Shown in pieces: positions 12,536-62,643 of a DNA stretch of 64,000 nucleotides. The notes under the pieces were generated by a model. That model saw nothing but the letters and a program-made list of their open reading frames with translations, made no database searches and was not told the origin of the DNA. A program made the position numbers and the translations under genes. The stretch is from Methylosinus sp. LW4 (lineage in GTDB: Bacteria > Pseudomonadota > Alphaproteobacteria > Rhizobiales > Beijerinckiaceae), in assembly GCF_000379125.1 (NCBI RefSeq), contig NZ_KB900626.1, forward strand, positions 3,234,667 to 3,298,666, in the 5' to 3' direction. Positions within the stretch are counted from its first letter, which is position 1. Each line of letters begins with the position of its first letter.

Positions 12536-13237
12536 ATGCCGACAATCGCTCTCGTCGACGACGACCGCAATATTCTCACTTCCGTCTCGATCGCGCTGGA
12601 AGGCGAGGGCTACCGCGTTCAAACCTACACCGACGGCGCCGCCGCGCTCGACGGGCTGCGCGCCAATCCGCCGGACCTCGCCATTTTCGACATAAAGATG
12701 CCGCGCATGGACGGGATGGAGCTGCTGCGCCGTCTGCGGCAGAAATCCGACCTTCCGGTGATCTTCCTCACCTCCAAGGACGAGGAGATCGACGAATTGT
12801 TCGGCCTCAAAATGGGCGCCGACGATTTCATTCACAAGCCGTTCTCGCAGCGCCTGCTGGTGGAGCGCGTGAAGGCCATTCTGCGCCGCGCAAATCCCAA
12901 GGAAGCCGCCGCGCAGAAGGAATCGGAAGCCAAGGTGCTGGAGCGCGGCGCGCTGGTCATGGACCCGGAGCGCCATACCTGCACCTGGCGGGGCGATCCC
13001 GTCGTGCTCACGGTGACGGAATTTCTCATCCTGCAGGCGCTGGCGCAGCGCCCCGGCGTGGTGAAGAGCCGCAATGCGTTGATGGACGCCGCCTATGACG
13101 ATCAGGTCTATGTCGACGATCGCACCATAGACAGCCACATCAAGCGGCTGCGCAAGAAGTTCAAGGTCGTCGACAATGAGTTCGAGATGATCGAGACGCT
13201 CTATGGCGTCGGCTATCGCTTCAAGGAAGCCCCATAA
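12536..13237 (+). CDS. chvI: Response regulator ChvI (OmpR/PhoB family)
   Basis: This is a DNA-binding response regulator of the envelope/acid-sensing ChvG-ChvI (ExoS-ChvI, BatS-BatR) system of Hyphomicrobiales. From the ATG at 12536 it has 233 residues: receiver domain with acidic pocket Asp8-Asp10, phospho-acceptor Asp52 ([12 protein letters not shown]) and Lys in IHKPFS, then a winged-helix domain with [16 protein letters not shown] and the C-terminal YGVGYRF. The start gives [26 protein letters not shown], nearly invariant in the family; an AAGG lies just upstream. It sits 6 nt before chvG, so it is cotranscribed. Confidence 0.95.
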
Positions 13238-55356: not shown

Positions 55357-56763
55357 ATGACCGACAAGACGACCGAATTCCGAACCGAGCGCGATTCCTT
55401 TGGCGACATAGAGGTTCCGGCCTCCGCCTATTGGGGCGCGCAGACGGAGCGGTCGCGGCAGAATTTCCCCATCGGCGTCGGCCGCATGCCGATCGAGATC
55501 GTCCATGCGCTGGCGCGGGTCAAGCTCGCGGCCGCCGAGGCCAATCTCGAGAAGGGCCTGCTGAAGAGCGAGGTCGCCGCCGCAATTTCCGCCGCCGCCC
55601 GCGAGGTGATCGAGGGCAAGCTCGACGCGCATTTCCCGCTCGTCGTCTGGCAGACCGGCTCCGGCACGCAATCCAACATGAACGTCAACGAGGTGATCGC
55701 CAATCGCGCCAATGAGGCGCTGGGCGCCGGCCGCGGAGCCAAGGCGCCGGTCCACCCCAATGACCATGTCAATCTCGGCCAATCCTCCAACGACAGCTTC
55801 CCGACCGCCATTCATGTCGCCGCGGCCATCGCCATATCGCAGCGCCTGCTGCCGGCGGTGGAGCGGCTGCACGCCGCGCTCGCCGCCAAGTCCAAGGCCT
55901 TCGAGCATATCGTCAAGATCGGCCGCACCCATTTGCAGGACGCCACCCCGGTCACGCTGGGCCAGGAGTTTTCCGGCTATGCGGCGCAGGCCGAGTTCGG
56001 CGCCAAGCGCATCCGCCAGGGGCTCGAGGATTTGTTCCTGCTCGCCCAGGGCGGCACCGCCGTCGGCACCGGCGTGAACACTTACAAAGGCTTCGCCGAG
56101 GCGGTCGCGGCCAAGATCGCGGCGCAGACCGGCCTTCCCTTCCAGACCGCGCCGAATAAATTCGAGGCGCTCGCCGCCCATGACGCAGCCGTCTTCGCCC
56201 ATGGCGCGCTGAACGCGCTCGCCGCCGGCCTCTATAAGATCGGCTGCGACATTCGCCTGCTCGGCTGCGGCCCACGCGCCGGCCTCGCCGAGCTGAAGCT
56301 GCCGGAGAACGAGCCGGGCTCGTCGATCATGCCGGGCAAGGTCAATCCGACCCAGGTCGAAGCGCTGACCATGGTCTGCACGCGCGTCTTCGGCAATAAC
56401 GCCACCGTCACCTTCGCCGCCTCGCAGGGCCATCTCGAGCTGAATGTGCTGAAGCCGGTGATCGCCGCGGCGCTGCTCGAATCGACGATATTGCTCGCCG
56501 ACGGCATCGACAGCTTCATCACCCGCTGCATCGACGGGATCGAGCCGGACGAGGCGAATATCAAGAATTTCCTGGAGCGCTCGCTGATGCTGGTGACGGC
56601 GCTGGCGCCCAAGATCGGCTATGACGCCGCCTCCAAGATCGCCCGCGCCGCGCATCACAATGGCACGACGCTGCGCGAGGAGGCGCTGAAGTCCGGCAAG
56701 GTGACGGACGCCGAATTCGACGCGCTGGTGCGGCCGGAGAATATGCTCGCGCCGAATGATTGA
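55357..56763 (+). CDS. fumC: Fumarate hydratase, class II
   Basis: This oxygen-stable TCA-cycle enzyme interconverts fumarate and malate. Its 468 residues start [21 protein letters not shown], with [56 protein letters not shown] and the fumarase signature [13 protein letters not shown]. The ATG at 55357 is chosen over an open extension to 55291. It ends before repeat R5. Confidence 0.97.
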
Positions 56764-56826: not shown

Positions 56827-56945
56827 CCTCATGCTGAGGAGGCGGCGTAGCCGCCGTCTCGAAGCACGAGGGCGAGCTCCAGACGGCGCGCTGACGGTTT
56901 CCTCGTCCTTCGAGACGCCCGCTACGCGGGCTCCTCAGGACGAGG
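56827..56945. repeat. Inverted repeat R5 between fumC and the acetyltransferase operon
   Basis: Two 45-nt arms (56827-56871 and 56901-56945) are inverted copies with about 38 matching positions, 29 nt apart. Each arm has its own small hairpin (GGCGGC-gta-GCCGCC on the left, GCCCGC-tac-GCGGGC on the right), the same nested plan as R1. The outer motif CTGAGGAG...CTCGAAG resembles a common repeat of Hyphomicrobiales genomes. It separates two convergent units. Confidence 0.8.
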
Positions 56946-56983: not shown

Positions 56984-57889
56984 TCACTTCACCACGCAGG
57001 CGCGCGCGATTCTCTCGAGACGGGCGCGGCCGTCGTCGGTCGCGGCGTCGGGCAGCGCATCCTCTCGCGCTGCCTCGCGCGCCGCGCAATCGCAAGCCGT
57101 CTCGCATTTTTGAGCATTGGCGCCAGACGCCACGCATTGCGCGCGGCAGGCTTCCTCGAAACGCGCATTCTGCATCGGCGCGAGCAGCATGGCGACGGCG
57201 GTGAAGCCGGCGAAGAACAAAGGCTGATGCAGGAGATAGAGCGCGAGGCTATGCCGCCCGAGCAAGGCGACGGCCCGCGTCGCCGCATTGCCTTGCGCGC
57301 CGGCGGCAGTCGCCGGGCGTAGACGCGCCAGCTTCCCCGCGCCGACGCCGAAGAGCAGCGCCCCCGCCCAGGGCGCGAGCGGACGATAATCATTGGTCAT
57401 CGGCTCGAAGGTCGAAAGCCCCGTCCACCAGAACCACGGCGCATCGAAGAAAGACGCCCGCGCGACGAAGGATGCGATGACCAAGGCGAAGCCCGCGGCG
57501 AAAGCTGCCGGCCAGGGCAGCCGCAGGAAAGGCGGAGCGAGCAGGCTCGCCGCCGCTATGCAATGCAGAATGCCGAAAAAGACGAAGCTCGACGGGAAGG
57601 CGATATAGGTCCCGGCGCTCACCAGCAGCGCGGCGCCGATGAGCAGCGCGAGCCGTCGCCAATAGGCGCGCGCGCGAAACGCCGTCCCCTGCGCGAGCGT
57701 CAGCGACAAGCCGGCGATGAACAGAAAGCTCGACGCGATCGCATGGCCGAACGCCTTATAGGCGTCCGAATAGGGGATGTCGGGATCGATATGGCCGAAA
57801 TGGCCGAGGTCCCAGCCGAAGTGAAAGGCGAACATCGCCAGCACGGCGAGGCCGCGCGCGACATCCAGCCAAAGAAGCCGCGCGGTCAT
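56984..57889 (-). CDS. HGSNAT-like (DUF1624) transmembrane acetyltransferase
   Basis: This 301-residue inner-membrane protein of the heparan-alpha-glucosaminide N-acetyltransferase/DUF1624 family would move acetyl from cytoplasmic acetyl-CoA to a sugar on the outer face. It has the start RLLWLDVARGLAVLAMFAFHFGWDL with the conserved Asp/Arg and His, about eight helices and the late motif LGRHSLALYLLHQPLFF. A Cys-rich, acidic hydrophilic tail follows (FEEACRAQCVASGANAQKCETACDCAAREAA) with six cysteines, unusual for the family. It is last of five genes; its start overlaps the upstream gene's stop by 4 nt. Confidence 0.85.
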   Translation of the reverse strand: MTARLLWLDVARGLAVLAMFAFHFGWDLGHFGHIDPDIPYSDAYKAFGHAIASSFLFIAGLSLTLAQGTAFRARAYWRRLALLIGAALLVSAGTYIAFPSSFVFFGILHCIAAASLLAPPFLRLPWPAAFAAGFALVIASFVARASFFDAPWFWWTGLSTFEPMTNDYRPLAPWAGALLFGVGAGKLARLRPATAAGAQGNAATRAVALLGRHSLALYLLHQPLFFAGFTAVAMLLAPMQNARFEEACRAQCVASGANAQKCETACDCAAREAAREDALPDAATDDGRARLERIARACVVK

Positions 57890-58872
57890 TTGACCGCCGT
57901 CGCCGCGGTCGATTGGAACTTGCCGAACACCATATCCGGCGCCGAGAGATTGTGCCGCGACGGCATGTGCCGGCCGAGCCAGATTTCCGTCGCCGGCGCG
58001 CCGGGAAAGCCGATGACCGGCGCCTCCTGCCAGCCTATGCCGCGCTTGGCGCGCCAGGCGACCAGCGCCGCGTCGCTCATCGATTGCGTGGTGTACATGG
58101 ACCGCAGCGAGGCGAAGGGCAGGCCGTCCGGCATTGCGTCGCTATAGGAGACATCGAGCACGATGCGATCCTGATCGATGGAGCCGAGACGAATCTTCGC
58201 CTCGCCGCCGCGGCGGAAGCGCAGGGTGAAGCTGCGCGCCTCGGGATCGAAGACGATCTCCTTCAGCGCGACGATGGGGCGCTCCTGCACCTCCACCGGG
58301 CCGATGAGGAAGGAGGAGCCATAGGCCGTCCAGCGCATGTCCTCGAACGGCAGCGGGCGCGCGCGCCAATAACCGTCCGGCGGATAGAAGACCAGAATTT
58401 CCTCCGCGCGCTCGCGATAGGTCATCCACAGCTGCACGAGATGAAAGCCCTTCTCCACCCGATCGCCGACGCGCACCGGCACGTCATTGGGCCGCCAGAA
58501 GGAGGGGAAAGTGTAGCCGACCAGCCAGAATTCCGGCGTCTCCCAAAAGGTGAGGCGGCGCGCGTCGGCGGCGAATTTGGAGTCATGCGAGAGATCGCAG
58601 CTCGTCCAATCCGGCGCCCAGCGGTCCGAGCCGATCATGCCGATATAGGAGGGATGAACCGCCTGCACGCGCATGCGCCGCACCTGCGGCGAGACGAAAT
58701 CCAGCTCGATATTGTCCTTCTCGGCGCAGAGCTCGGGCGTGGATCGGTTCTCGATCCGCACTTGCAGATCCTCCTCCGCCTCCAGCGCCTGCTGCGCGAA
58801 GGACGGCCGGGCGAAGGGCAGGCTGGAGGCGGCGAGGAGGAGCCGGCGGCGATCGATCAGCGATGCGGACAT
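57886..58872 (-). CDS. Exported protein of unknown function, Tat-type signal
   Basis: I do not recognise the family with certainty. The 328 residues begin with MSASLIDRRRLLLAASSLPF and a cleavage site near SFAQQA, a twin-arginine-like signal, so the folded protein would act in the periplasm. The mature part is beta-rich with many aromatic residues (TFWETPEFWLVGYTFPSFWRPNDVPV, FYPPDGYWRARPLPFEDMRW), as in carbohydrate-binding or glycoside-processing proteins. It overlaps the DUF1624 gene by 4 nt and follows the GT-C gene by 48 bp, so it should serve the same glycan-related pathway. Confidence 0.6.
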   Translation of the reverse strand: MSASLIDRRRLLLAASSLPFARPSFAQQALEAEEDLQVRIENRSTPELCAEKDNIELDFVSPQVRRMRVQAVHPSYIGMIGSDRWAPDWTSCDLSHDSKFAADARRLTFWETPEFWLVGYTFPSFWRPNDVPVRVGDRVEKGFHLVQLWMTYRERAEEILVFYPPDGYWRARPLPFEDMRWTAYGSSFLIGPVEVQERPIVALKEIVFDPEARSFTLRFRRGGEAKIRLGSIDQDRIVLDVSYSDAMPDGLPFASLRSMYTTQSMSDAALVAWRAKRGIGWQEAPVIGFPGAPATEIWLGRHMPSRHNLSAPDMVFGKFQSTAATAVK

Positions 58873-58920
58873 GGGCGGTATCGGATTCCTGTTACGGCGG
58901 ACGCGGCGATGCGCCGGATA

Positions 58921-60723
58921 TTATTGCGCAGGACGCAGGGCGAAAACATGGAAAGGCGAGCGCTCGAGTGGGATTTTCTCGAGAAAGGAGGGGCTCTCGC
59001 CACGCGCGAGGGCGGCCGCCAGCCCATGGGGCGCGCGCTCGATGAGGGCGTTGCCGGTCTCGCCGCCGTCGCACCAGAGCAGCAGCTCGGCGCCAGCGGC
59101 GCGCAGCAGGCGCTCGGCCGCGGCAGGGTCGGCCAGAAAAGCGTCGACCGCGAGGCGATTGCCGCGATTGTCGCGATGATAGGGCGCGGCGAAGACCTGA
59201 TGCGGCGTGAAGGCGAGAATATGCGCTCCCATATCGACGGGCGCGACGATGCGCGCCGGCGGCAGCGCCGCGAGGCCGGAGAAGGCCGCGGCCTCGAGGC
59301 AGGCGCGACGGGTCTCGCGCGGGGCGGCCTCGCCGTCCGATTGCAGCGCCACAGCGAGGCCCATGGGCGAGACGAAGAGGCAGAGCAGGCCGATCGAGAG
59401 CCAGCGCAGCAGCGGCATGACGTGCGCGAGGCGCGCCGATAGCGCGGCCGCCGCGCCGGCGAGCGCGATCATGGCCAGCGGCGTGACCGAGGAGAAGACG
59501 CGAATCTGCCAGAGCGCCGCGGCGAAGCCGATGAGAATCGCCGCCGCCAGCATGGCCCAGCGCCCGCGCGCGAGACCATGCTCCCGCCAGGCGAGGACAA
59601 TGGCGGCGAGGAGGCCGAGCAGCACCGGCGCGGCGGTGGAGACCATCAGGGCCGGATCGGAAATAAAAGCCTTCAGCGGCTTGGCCTCGGTGACATGGGA
59701 AAGCCAGAGATCGCGCAGCAGCGGATCGAGCCCGACCAGCGGATCGCCGAGACATTGCGGCGCGCTGGCGATGAAAGCCCCGAGCGCGGCCCCGCCGACG
59801 AGGCCGAGCGCGATGGCGCGGCGCGCAAACGTCTCGAGGCGCGGCGCGGCGGCGGCCAGCGCCGCGAAGCCGAGCGCGCCGACGATGATAGCGCGAATAT
59901 GGACGGCCGAATAGGCGTCGCAGGCCGAAAGGCCGTAGCGCGAAGGCGCGACAGTCGCCGCGTAAGCGAGCGGCGCGAAGACGAGCAGGCCGAGAGCGAA
60001 TGAGAGAAGGCGGCGCGACGCCGCCGCGCCTTCGATGAGGAAGAGGATCGCCGGCGCCGCCAACAGCACAATGAAGAAGGGAAGATTCTCGAGGCTGATT
60101 GCGAGCGACAGAGCGAGCGGCGCGGCGGCGGCCGCGAGCGCCAGAGGACGTTTCGCGTCGAGGCCGAGCGCGATGAGGCCGAATGTCGCCATCAGCAGCA
60201 CGATCTGCGGCGCATGATGATCGATGCGGCCCGGCGTGAATTGCATGAACATCGGCGCCGAGAGAAACACCAGCCAGACGGCGAGCATGCGCGCCGGGCG
60301 ATCCGCCATGACGCGCGCCACAAAGGCCGCGAGCGCGAAGAGCAGGGCGAGGCAGAGAAACGGAAAGGCGAGCCGCGTCGCGCGCTCCGCCATCTCCGGC
60401 GCGAGCAGCAGCCCGAACAGCAGATCGAGCGCGGCGAGCGGCGTATCGACGATGCGCGACCAATGCATGAAGAGCCCGTCCGGCGGATCGAGCCTTCGAG
60501 CCGTCATATCGAACCAGGATTGGCCGGCGAGGAGATCGCGCAGCTGCACGGCGCGCATGGCGTCGTCGGAATCGTAGAATTCGCCGGCGCTCCACACGGC
60601 GCGCGCGCGAGGGAGCGTCAATAGCGCAGCGCCGGCGAGCGCCGGGATAATGGCGGCGAGAAGCGGAATTTCACGACGCGTCCGCACATGGACGCGCGCC
60701 GTCTCGCCGGCGAGCGCGCTCAC
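58921..60723 (-). CDS. GT-C-type membrane glycosyltransferase (predicted)
   Basis: This 600-residue polytopic protein has about twelve membrane helices and a C-terminal periplasmic domain of about 130 residues. The first periplasmic loop has the acidic cluster GEFYDSDDAMRAVQ (Asp51, 53, 54) and later FTPGRIDHHAPQ, the layout of GT-C enzymes that use polyprenyl-phosphate sugars (STT3/ArnT-like). The start is a GTG at 60723 overlapping the GtrA stop (GTGA). A longer frame to 60993 is antisense noise. Sugar and acceptor are unknown. Confidence 0.75.
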   Translation of the reverse strand: MSALAGETARVHVRTRREIPLLAAIIPALAGAALLTLPRARAVWSAGEFYDSDDAMRAVQLRDLLAGQSWFDMTARRLDPPDGLFMHWSRIVDTPLAALDLLFGLLLAPEMAERATRLAFPFLCLALLFALAAFVARVMADRPARMLAVWLVFLSAPMFMQFTPGRIDHHAPQIVLLMATFGLIALGLDAKRPLALAAAAAPLALSLAISLENLPFFIVLLAAPAILFLIEGAAASRRLLSFALGLLVFAPLAYAATVAPSRYGLSACDAYSAVHIRAIIVGALGFAALAAAAPRLETFARRAIALGLVGGAALGAFIASAPQCLGDPLVGLDPLLRDLWLSHVTEAKPLKAFISDPALMVSTAAPVLLGLLAAIVLAWREHGLARGRWAMLAAAILIGFAAALWQIRVFSSVTPLAMIALAGAAAALSARLAHVMPLLRWLSIGLLCLFVSPMGLAVALQSDGEAAPRETRRACLEAAAFSGLAALPPARIVAPVDMGAHILAFTPHQVFAAPYHRDNRGNRLAVDAFLADPAAAERLLRAAGAELLLWCDGGETGNALIERAPHGLAAALARGESPSFLEKIPLERSPFHVFALRPAQ

Positions 60724-61151
60724 GCAGACGCCTTGGCGGCCGGCGCCGAGAAGAGAAGCGCGCGGCGCGCGGTGAAATTGAACAGGAAGACGACGCCGGC
60801 GGTCGGAATTTTCGCAAAGGCGGGATCGAAGCCGAGACGGCCGACGAGGAGCAGCATCAGCGCCTCGGTGACGAGCAAGCCGGCGAGGCCGATGGCGCAG
60901 AAAAGCGTGAATTCCGACGCCGGCCGCACGCTGCGCCGATCGCGGAACACCAGACTTATGCTGAGCGCATAGACGAGCGCGAGCCCGCCGCAAAAGCCGA
61001 TCGCCGCCGCGACGAGATAGGGCACGCCGAGTGTCTTATGACAGAGCAGCAGCAGCCCATAGTCGAGCGCCAGCGCCGCGCCGCTCGCCAGCCCATAAGC
61101 GATGAGATCGCGCAGCACGCGCGTGGCGGCGAAGACGCGATGCGTCGACAC
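60720..61151 (-). CDS. GtrA-like polyprenyl-phosphate-sugar flippase
   Basis: This 143-residue protein has four transmembrane helices of the GtrA family (DLIAYGLASGAALALDYGLLLLC, YLVAAAIGFCGGLALVYALS, FTLFCAIGLAGLLVTEALMLLL, IPTAGVVFLFNFTARRALLF), thought to flip lipid-linked sugars for a GT-C transferase. The start is a GTG at 61151, 1 nt after the stop of the flavoprotein gene; its stop overlaps the GT-C start. Confidence 0.88.
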   Translation of the reverse strand: MSTHRVFAATRVLRDLIAYGLASGAALALDYGLLLLCHKTLGVPYLVAAAIGFCGGLALVYALSISLVFRDRRSVRPASEFTLFCAIGLAGLLVTEALMLLLVGRLGFDPAFAKIPTAGVVFLFNFTARRALLFSAPAAKASA

Positions 61152-61152
61152 G

Positions 61153-62643
61153 TCAAGCGACCCGCTTCGGCACGAGACGCTCGCTCGCCAGCGCCTGCTG
61201 AGCGCCGGAGACGCCGGCTTCCGTATATTCGGCGTCCTCGTTCACGCCCCAGACGTCATAGACGGCGCGGCCGGCGATGATGTTGAGCGCGGTCAACATA
61301 CCGGTCATCATCGCATGATCCTGGTTGTTGTATTTGTGCATGCCGTTGCGGCCGACGAGATGCAGGCCCGGATAGCGCGCCGCCAGCTCGAGACGAATCG
61401 CCTGCACATTGGCGGCGTAGGAATCGTCATAGACCGGATAGGCCTTGGCCTGACGCACGACGCAGGCGTCGCGCACATCCTCCGCCTTCATGAGGCCGAT
61501 CTTCGCGATCTCGTCCTTGGCGAGCGCGACGAGATCGGCGTCCGCCGCGTTCCACAATCCATCGCCCTCGAAGCAGAAATATTCGAGGCCGAGACAAGTG
61601 GAGACGCCATCGGCGATCATCTCCGGCGACCAGGATTTGAAATTCTGCACGCGGCCGACCTTCACCGACGGATCATGAATATAGATCCAATTGTCTGGGA
61701 ACTCCTCCTGCGGCCGTCCGATCAGCACGACTGTGAGAAAATCGCGATAGGCGAGCGCGCGCGCGTTGAAGAGGCTGAGCGGCGTCGGCGTCAGCGCATT
61801 CATCACCTCGCGCAGCGGCGCGGAGGAGAGCACATTGCGCGCGCGATGCGTCTCGACGACGCCTTGCGCATCGCGCGTCGTGACGGTCCAAATTCCGCTC
61901 GCTTCATCGAAAGCGAGCTGCTCGACCTTGCAGCCCATTCGCAGACCGCCGCCGAGCTTCTGCATCTTGCGCGCGGCGGCTTCCCACATCATGCCGGGGC
62001 CGCGACGCGGATAGCGGAAGGATTCGATCAGCGTCTTCGCCGCGTTGCCGGATTTGCGGAGCTTCAAGGAGCGGCGCAATCCGTCGATGATCGCCGCGCC
62101 GAGGCTGAGGCCCTTGATGCGCTGCGCCGCCCAATCGGCGGAGATGTCGTCGCAGCTCATGCCCCATACTTTTTCGGTATAGGTCTTGAAGAAAATGCCG
62201 AACAGCCGTTCGCCGAACTGATTGCGCACCCATTGATGAAAGGAGCGCGGCTCCTTCACCGGAAAGGCCTTGGCGAAGGCGAAGGACGCCATGCACAGCG
62301 CGCTCTCGAAGAGCCCGAGATTCTTCAGCGCCTCGAAAGCCTTCAGCGGATAGGCGTAGAATTTCTCGCGATAGAAGATGCGCGACAGACGCGGCCGCTC
62401 GATGAAATCATGCGGGAGAATCTCGTCCCACAGATCGACGATCTCTTTCGATTTCGAGAAGAAGCGGTGACCGCCTATGTCGAAGAGAAAGCCCTTGTAG
62501 CTCGCGGTGCGGCTGATGCCGCCGACATAGGATCGGTCCTGCTCGAGGACGAGAACCTCGCGGCCGTTCTTCGCTAGAACAAAAGCGGCGGTGAGGCCCG
62601 CAGGCCCTGCGCCGATCACTATCGATTCGATGATCTCGCCCAT
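61153..62643 (-). CDS. FAD-dependent amine-oxidase/UGM-like flavoprotein
   Basis: This 496-residue flavoprotein has the FAD site VIGAGPAGLTAAFVLAKNGREVLVLEQ, then GGISRTASYKGFLFDIGGHRFFSKSKEIVDLWDEIL. That start is shared by protoporphyrinogen-oxidase-like and UDP-galactopyranose-mutase-like enzymes that stand next to GtrA and glycosyltransferases. The middle has FFKTYTEKVWGMSCDDISADWAAQRIKGLSL and the C-terminal FAD part LHLVGRNGMHKYNNQDHAMMTG. It probably modifies a nucleotide or lipid-linked sugar. It is first in a five-gene unit. The ATG at 62643 is the family-like start. Confidence 0.82.
   Translation of the reverse strand: MGEIIESIVIGAGPAGLTAAFVLAKNGREVLVLEQDRSYVGGISRTASYKGFLFDIGGHRFFSKSKEIVDLWDEILPHDFIERPRLSRIFYREKFYAYPLKAFEALKNLGLFESALCMASFAFAKAFPVKEPRSFHQWVRNQFGERLFGIFFKTYTEKVWGMSCDDISADWAAQRIKGLSLGAAIIDGLRRSLKLRKSGNAAKTLIESFRYPRRGPGMMWEAAARKMQKLGGGLRMGCKVEQLAFDEASGIWTVTTRDAQGVVETHRARNVLSSAPLREVMNALTPTPLSLFNARALAYRDFLTVVLIGRPQEEFPDNWIYIHDPSVKVGRVQNFKSWSPEMIADGVSTCLGLEYFCFEGDGLWNAADADLVALAKDEIAKIGLMKAEDVRDACVVRQAKAYPVYDDSYAANVQAIRLELAARYPGLHLVGRNGMHKYNNQDHAMMTGMLTALNIIAGRAVYDVWGVNEDAEYTEAGVSGAQQALASERLVPKRVA

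Follow-up and report, generated by a model that had tools for sequence, protein, structure and literature searches.

Two described kinds of envelope-glycan system come closest to the operon analysed here, a set of five genes in a 64,000-nucleotide stretch of Methylosinus sp. LW4 (contig NZ_KB900626.1, positions 3,234,667 to 3,298,666 of the forward strand; hereafter the window, from a genome of 4.8 Mb). The first is three-component periplasmic glycosylation (GtrA/GtrB/Gtr), in which a small flippase adjoins a GT-C-type enzyme and the sugar is added outside the membrane; PMC11127046 describes a version for pentofuranose that uses a MATE flippase and GT136. The second is the locus for osmoregulated periplasmic glucans (OPG), arranged opgG/opgD-opgH-opgC, with OpgH as the glucan synthase. 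According to three papers, OpgG and OpgD of Escherichia coli are beta-1,2-glucanases of family GH186 (PMC10514313), OpgC belongs to the transmembrane acyltransferase (TmAT) superfamily, for which a DxxR-x10-H motif is named (PMC12423673), and opgH is the sole opg homologue of Caulobacter (PMC11389396). OpgH homologues without OpgG do exist, then, and their periplasmic partner is a live question; our control Caulobacter genomes agree, having an OpgH match and lacking an MdoG match.

All five frames of the operon are open on the minus strand. In order of transcription they encode FLAV (61153-62643, ATG start, 496 aa), a FAD-type enzyme of the UDP-galactopyranose mutase (UGM) superfamily; GtrA (60720-61151, GTG start, 143 aa), a small membrane protein and putative polyprenyl-phosphate-sugar flippase; GTC (58921-60723, 600 aa from its best start, a GTG at 60723), a putative GT-C-type membrane glycosyltransferase and predicted distant relative of STT3; EXP (57886-58872, 328 aa), an exported protein with a twin-arginine-type signal; and HGSNAT (56984-57889, 301 aa), an HGSNAT_cat/TmAT membrane acyltransferase with a six-cysteine C-terminal tail. 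Successive genes are separated by a 1 nt gap, a 4-nt overlap (of GtrA with GTC), a 48 nt gap and another 4-nt overlap. Since FLAV matches its model strongly and EXP has thousands of homologues (see below), these are conserved genes and not chance frames.

We rate at about even the prospect that this operon arose when two envelope-glycan modules, A (FLAV-GtrA-GTC) and B (EXP-HGSNAT), were secondarily joined. Co-occurrence was counted in 149 genomes of one family at E ≤ 1e-30 (GTC in 61, EXP in 85, HGSNAT in 121 and FLAV in 51); GtrA, present in almost all of them (137 of 149, among the matches listed), was for that reason left out. GTC was independent of EXP (both in 36 genomes, p = 0.74 in Fisher's test) and of HGSNAT (both in 47, p = 0.29), and FLAV showed no association with EXP (p = 1.0); when counted by genus (n = 43), p was 1.0 for both GTC-EXP and FLAV-EXP. 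FLAV, GTC, EXP and HGSNAT were all found at one place in 8 genomes only, GtrA not being part of that search. A sequence-only reading of the window had described five tightly packed genes on one strand, and frames, strand and spacing are all as it described. It had also taken the five for a single pathway, a view that it would give up if the genes scattered independently in relatives, and the two halves do scatter in this way. Its sequence of sugar modification, flipping and transfer is supported for FLAV-GtrA-GTC as a unit, by co-occurrence, gene fusions and UGM-type residues; a single pathway of all five is not supported.

Within module A, GTC and FLAV were both present in 45 genomes (p = 4e-18), within 10 kb of each other in 22, and in 14 of the 43 genera (p = 9e-6). 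GtrA was fused to the N-terminus of GTC in 19 of the 120 homologues listed (the best 120 of 376), and two named-genome loci, L009 and L018, which group together in the EXP tree, have a GTC frame of fused length and no separate GtrA. In 10 genomes a GT2 gene (PF00535) was linked to GTC, and FLAV was missing from 7 of these; several copies of this GT2 adjoin a GtrA as judged by eye. Among the 61 genomes with GTC, 10 had both FLAV and GT2, 35 FLAV only, 10 GT2 only and 6 neither, an anti-association (p = 0.005, with GT2 at E ≤ 1e-40 and no correction for phylogeny) that fits a system whose lipid-linked donor comes from either a GT2 or the flavoenzyme. Module A resembles three-component glycosylation in its small flippase adjoining a putative GT-C-type enzyme and in the presumed addition of sugar outside the membrane. 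It differs in that the operon carries a UGM-type flavoenzyme in place of a GT2 or polyprenyl-phosphate-sugar synthase, in that the GT-C enzyme is STT3-like, and in the GtrA-GT-C fusions.

Taken together, FLAV, GtrA and GTC likely form a three-component system for periplasmic glycosylation in which one step is of mutase type. In the cytoplasm, FLAV would isomerise an activated sugar, in the simplest case from pyranose to furanose on a nucleotide or polyprenyl phosphate, GtrA would carry the lipid-phosphate sugar across the inner membrane, and the STT3-like GTC would attach it to an envelope acceptor; reactions, substrate and acceptor are all predictions from sequence comparison. Elsewhere in the window genome, a 508-aa frame comes after a GtrA-GT2 pair (L160:5833-8771), an arrangement that resembles a classical three-component system.

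FLAV scored 903.7 bits against NF005545 (PRK07208.1-1; cut-off 451), a model whose description reads just 'hypothetical protein'. The literature searched held no paper on PRK07208, and among the papers listed for GtrA-family proteins, flavin amine oxidoreductases and UGM in alphaproteobacteria we saw nothing relevant. The closest solved chains to FLAV are UDP-galactopyranose mutases (E = 4.5e-21), which we take to be the Aspergillus fumigatus enzyme, and residues are numbered here after its active site. When aligned to this numbering, FLAV kept 9 of the 11 UGM (Glf) active-site residues checked, a set that contacts flavin and diphosphate (H63, F158, W167, R182, Y317, R327, R447, Y453 and N457), and these were retained in 22 of 22 homologues; Y104, one of three further residues compared by eye, was also kept. 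The catalytic core of FLAV thus looks UGM-like, while its substrate may differ.

GtrA matched PF04138 (E = 2.5e-19, 70 bits over a cut-off of 26.1). GTC, with its many hydrophobic segments, reached the cut-off of no Pfam family. STT3 was nevertheless the commonest library match of the GTC family: 15 of 28 rows (two being the same gene) matched the archaeal STT3 model TIGR04154 (best E = 3.2e-6) and two matched PF02516 (best E = 6.5e-4), with no other family matched by more than two rows. These matches are weak but family-wide, and the window GTC itself gave E = 0.47 (8.7 of 450 bits) with TIGR04154. A search of the Protein Data Bank (PDB) with the single GTC sequence gave no match, and the family profile gave three, the first to 3vgp (oligosaccharyl transferase, E = 0.045) and the third to 3vu0 (E = 1.4), the latter deposited as an uncharacterised protein that we take to be AglB; both chains are presumably STT3/AglB C-terminal domains. 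3vu0 matches the same part of the profile as 3vgp, whose alignment spans its WWDYG site, and there GTC reads x-x-D-x-G, so that GTC resembles STT3/AglB at this position and departs from it in a motif shrunk to D-x-G.

A second family of large membrane proteins, GTCX, follows FLAV-GtrA in other genera (L133:8233-10257, L123:8453-10507, L130:7255-9285 and L122:9179-11332) and was the negative control against which the STT3 matches were set (n = 4); alongside it, one of two GTC rows matched TIGR04154. GTCX had no NCBIfam match in any of the four and no Pfam match in the two scanned for that; in L122, L123 and L130, GTC lies convergent beside it. The named locus L012 keeps FLAV and GtrA, with a different 519-aa frame (L012:6305-7861; only a sub-threshold PAP2 match, E = 0.03) in the place of GTC, as expected if the last transferase was swapped. 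Of the 30 loci considered for alignment A2, eight stayed unused (six flagged for an in-frame stop, one that nearly duplicates another and that of the window itself), and the alignment holds one duplicated gene (L110 = L124).

The Rgt galacturonosyltransferases of Rhizobiales decorate lipid A or the lipopolysaccharide core, and the product of FLAV might go to a GT-C enzyme of this kind with no furanose involved. UniRef names some GTC homologues 'Glycosyltransferase RgtA/B/C/D-like' (among the matches listed) and GT2 adjoins GTC in 10 of the 149 genomes, both of which favour such a route; to our knowledge, however, the Rgt route includes no UGM-type enzyme, and we regard this alternative to furanose transfer by module A as rather doubtful.

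Module B, presumably the older of the two, also occurs where module A is absent, and it has a different set of partners. EXP and HGSNAT were both present in 80 genomes (p = 4e-6), and in 33 they lay at most 10 kb apart. Upstream of EXP in 55 named-genome loci, the closest gene that we recognised belonged to the module A cassette in 10 (9 of them with a window-type GTC), was YkuD in 21, an opgH-type GT2 in 19 and something else in 5. GT2 adjoined or overlapped EXP in 15 of the 19, and some 0.7-0.8 kb lay between them in L035, L040, L044 and L051; the one representative scanned (L053) was OpgH by NF003963 (904 bits over 884). Matches to that model at E ≤ 1e-60 were present in 140 of the 149 genomes (among the matches listed) and fell into two score groups, a short form at 554 bits or above (71 genomes) and a canonical form at 458 or below; the short set is complete, all of it scoring at least 554 bits with 458 as the next listed value.

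Of the 149 genomes, 65 had both EXP and short OpgH (p = 3e-17), the two lying at most 5 kb apart in 45; by genus, both were present in 21 of 43 (p = 1.1e-6). EXP occurred in none of the nine genomes without an OpgH match at E ≤ 1e-60 (p = 3.5e-4, among the matches listed; the nine come from four genera and some are incomplete). MdoG was found in 131 of the 149 genomes (among the matches listed); in all five sampled genomes of one genus, g27, short OpgH adjoins EXP and the matches listed include no MdoG, and one further genome (G128) likewise had EXP and short OpgH without a listed MdoG. This arrangement is reminiscent of the OPG locus, as an exported protein and a membrane acyltransferase come after opgH in relatives; unlike that locus, the exported protein is not MdoG/GH186 and the acyltransferase comes from a different branch of the TmAT superfamily, HGSNAT_cat.

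The linkage and co-presence with opgH in relatives suggest that EXP is probably a periplasmic glucan partner, more precisely one of an OpgH-type synthase. EXP and HGSNAT would then stand in the places held by OpgG/OpgD and OpgC in other OPG loci, with HGSNAT passing an acyl group from acyl-CoA to the periplasmic glycan. Among the papers listed for opgH in Methylobacterium, Beijerinckiaceae or Bradyrhizobium we saw nothing on EXP.

Co-occurrence does not prove joint action, and EXP and OpgH may be neighbours through lineage history alone. EXP is indeed nearly confined to the family (a class-wide sample of 289 genomes gave 3 matches outside it, and 24 genomes of other families of the order gave 1), the block around opgH-EXP is conserved as well, and in genus g59 a short-type OpgH (618-646 bits) is present in four genomes with neither EXP nor MdoG among the matches listed. 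Against this, the two genes are found together even where they are not linked, being apart in 20 of the 65 genomes that have both, and the co-presence holds by genus too; we regard shared descent without joint action as a rather doubtful explanation.

Turning to the proteins of module B, 7999 candidates were scored against EXP, of which 3311 were homologues at E ≤ 1e-3 (the best 120 were listed), and EXP had no Pfam or NCBIfam family match. Its residues C49 and C92 were invariant in the 41 rows of alignment A1. A twin-arginine-type motif, defined as RR-x-[FL]-[LIVM] in the first 30 residues, was present in 12 of these rows, namely the window protein, its ten closest database rows (68-85% identical) and L029, and absent from all 8 of the other database rows of full length; the locus rows left over are mostly truncated at the match and so unable to show a signal. 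The export route may have switched. Weak NUDIX-like, SDH_C and YpM matches to EXP were rejected, as each concerned one or two members and none exceeded a cut-off. A second EXP copy, about 43-46% identical to that of the window, occurs in L082, L084, L085 and L086, with no opgH in the fetched stretch.

HGSNAT matched PF07786 (E = 1.2e-69, 234.7 bits over a cut-off of 22) and carried the D9-x2-R12-x10-H23 (DxxR-x10-H) motif of the first helix in 39 of 39 homologues; a PDB search with the single sequence gave no match. Each of the six tail cysteines was conserved in 37 of the 39, the other two rows having gaps there, and by eye six cysteines were present in 8 of 10 unlinked copies and four in the other 2. 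The acyltransferase assignment of the sequence-only reading is supported by the motif. The cysteine tail, which it had called unusual, is real and conserved, and we rejected it as special to the operon; the twin-arginine-type signal, present in the window protein, was rejected as a trait of the EXP family; and the label 'orphan' does not suit a protein that goes with OpgH.

Action of EXP-HGSNAT on peptidoglycan and not on glucans would account for the 21 of 55 named loci in which EXP follows an L,D-transpeptidase (YkuD) gene adjoining murein endopeptidase MepA (one representative of each identified by Pfam, the others by homology), but it is unlikely, as all YkuD rows fall in a single Methylosinus-Methylocystis clade of the EXP tree, the OpgH link is stronger across the family and EXP is found only in genomes with OpgH (among the matches listed).

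The reading of the operon as a join of two modules is in keeping with its distribution and with a split locus. Methylosinus and some Methylocystis share the five-gene order. On the EXP tree of 53 rows, three changes suffice to explain the cassette, and they all fall within a single clade of 31 rows; the tree omits three short rows (L052, L056 and L054, the last with the cassette), and where a contig was short, its row was scored on what that contig covers. In relatives, a block of ADH, PTPS, GT4 and methyltransferase genes flanks opgH-EXP. In the window genome this block lies elsewhere in the chromosome with a short opgH, EXP being missing there, and the EXP-HGSNAT pair of the window retains the fumC-EcfG-PhyR right flank seen in relatives. 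A break between opgH and EXP is the simplest history: in Methylosinus the junction would have broken, opgH staying with its old neighbours and module A filling the gap, and in Methylocystis the break would have been filled by YkuD, or by YkuD and the cassette, a direction of change that we infer. That all five genes instead serve one pathway, in which a sugar is altered, flipped and transferred before HGSNAT, helped by EXP, acetylates it, would suit the tight packing with overlaps, the order held in these two genera and the three cassette changes within one clade, but is improbable given the lack of association of GTC or FLAV with EXP by genome and by genus, the linkage of four genes in so few genomes and the other, commoner partners of each half.

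In L053 (1078-7869) and L169 (3393-10129) the block comprises cytochrome b561, a methyltransferase, GT4, a PTPS-like protein and a zinc dehydrogenase, divergent from short opgH; RibD_C was present in the L053 block and not found in that of L169. It looks like a pterin-glycoside or similar pathway, and we know of no described pathway matching this cytochrome b561/PTPS-like/GT4 block.

As a more specific and tentative possibility, EXP may represent a new family of periplasmic glucan-processing or docking proteins working with short OpgH (in one genus without OpgG/OpgD), while the FLAV mutase would make a furanose for periplasmic transfer by the STT3-descended GTC, replacing the GT2 donor step, and Methylosinus would have brought both decorations under one operon. 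A number of results weigh against the two-module reading or parts of it. FLAV stays under both UGM cut-offs (PF03275, 15.9 of 26.3 bits; TIGR00031, 51.2 of 303.75 bits), and 2 of the 11 residues checked are changed (N163 to T and Y334 to W), as are, by eye, Q107 (K) and N207 (T), so its substrate may differ from UDP-galactose. None of the five genes matches a GT2 family, i.e. the operon has no GT2 donor synthase, and GTC matches STT3 models only far beneath their cut-offs. EXP has no solved relative in a PDB profile search (0 matches), and its candidacy as an OpgG/OpgD homologue was rejected (hhalign probability of 0.2% against four MdoG rows, and no MdoG in Pfam scans). In 41 genomes HGSNAT is present and EXP is not, and in five named loci whose contig continues (L047, L048, L051, L055 and L058) EXP has no HGSNAT beside it. 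Short OpgH is missing from 20 of the 85 EXP genomes, all 20 having another OpgH, and 6 of the 71 short-OpgH genomes lack EXP; the g59 genomes indicate that a short-type OpgH can do without it. MdoG is also present in 79 of the 85 EXP genomes (among the matches listed), and EXP is therefore usually an addition, not a replacement. The genome counts, finally, are corrected for phylogeny only by the genus-majority count.

Tied as it is to OpgH in 21 of 43 genera, EXP is a concrete candidate for the periplasmic partner of OpgH in the family, and with module A a link between lipid-linked periplasmic sugar transfer and a UGM-type enzyme becomes testable. The two modules both provide targets for gene deletion in cultivable methanotrophs.

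Among the surroundings of the operon, the locus of M. sporium DSM 17706 (L004) encodes an EXP 98% identical to that of the window. A gene presumably of GGDEF type lies upstream of the operon. On the other side, fumC (55357-56763, plus strand) is convergent with it, and fumC with EcfG and PhyR beyond makes up the right flank of EXP-HGSNAT common to several Beijerinckiaceae; these three names are assumed from the sequence, their homologues having been located by tblastn and phmmer. An imperfect 45-nt inverted repeat (56827-56945, strand not assigned) separates fumC from the end of the operon. An Rfam search of the window, this region included, gave no match. The repeat resembles a dispersed repeat element, and its core has one more weak match in the window (3 mismatches), at position 12769.

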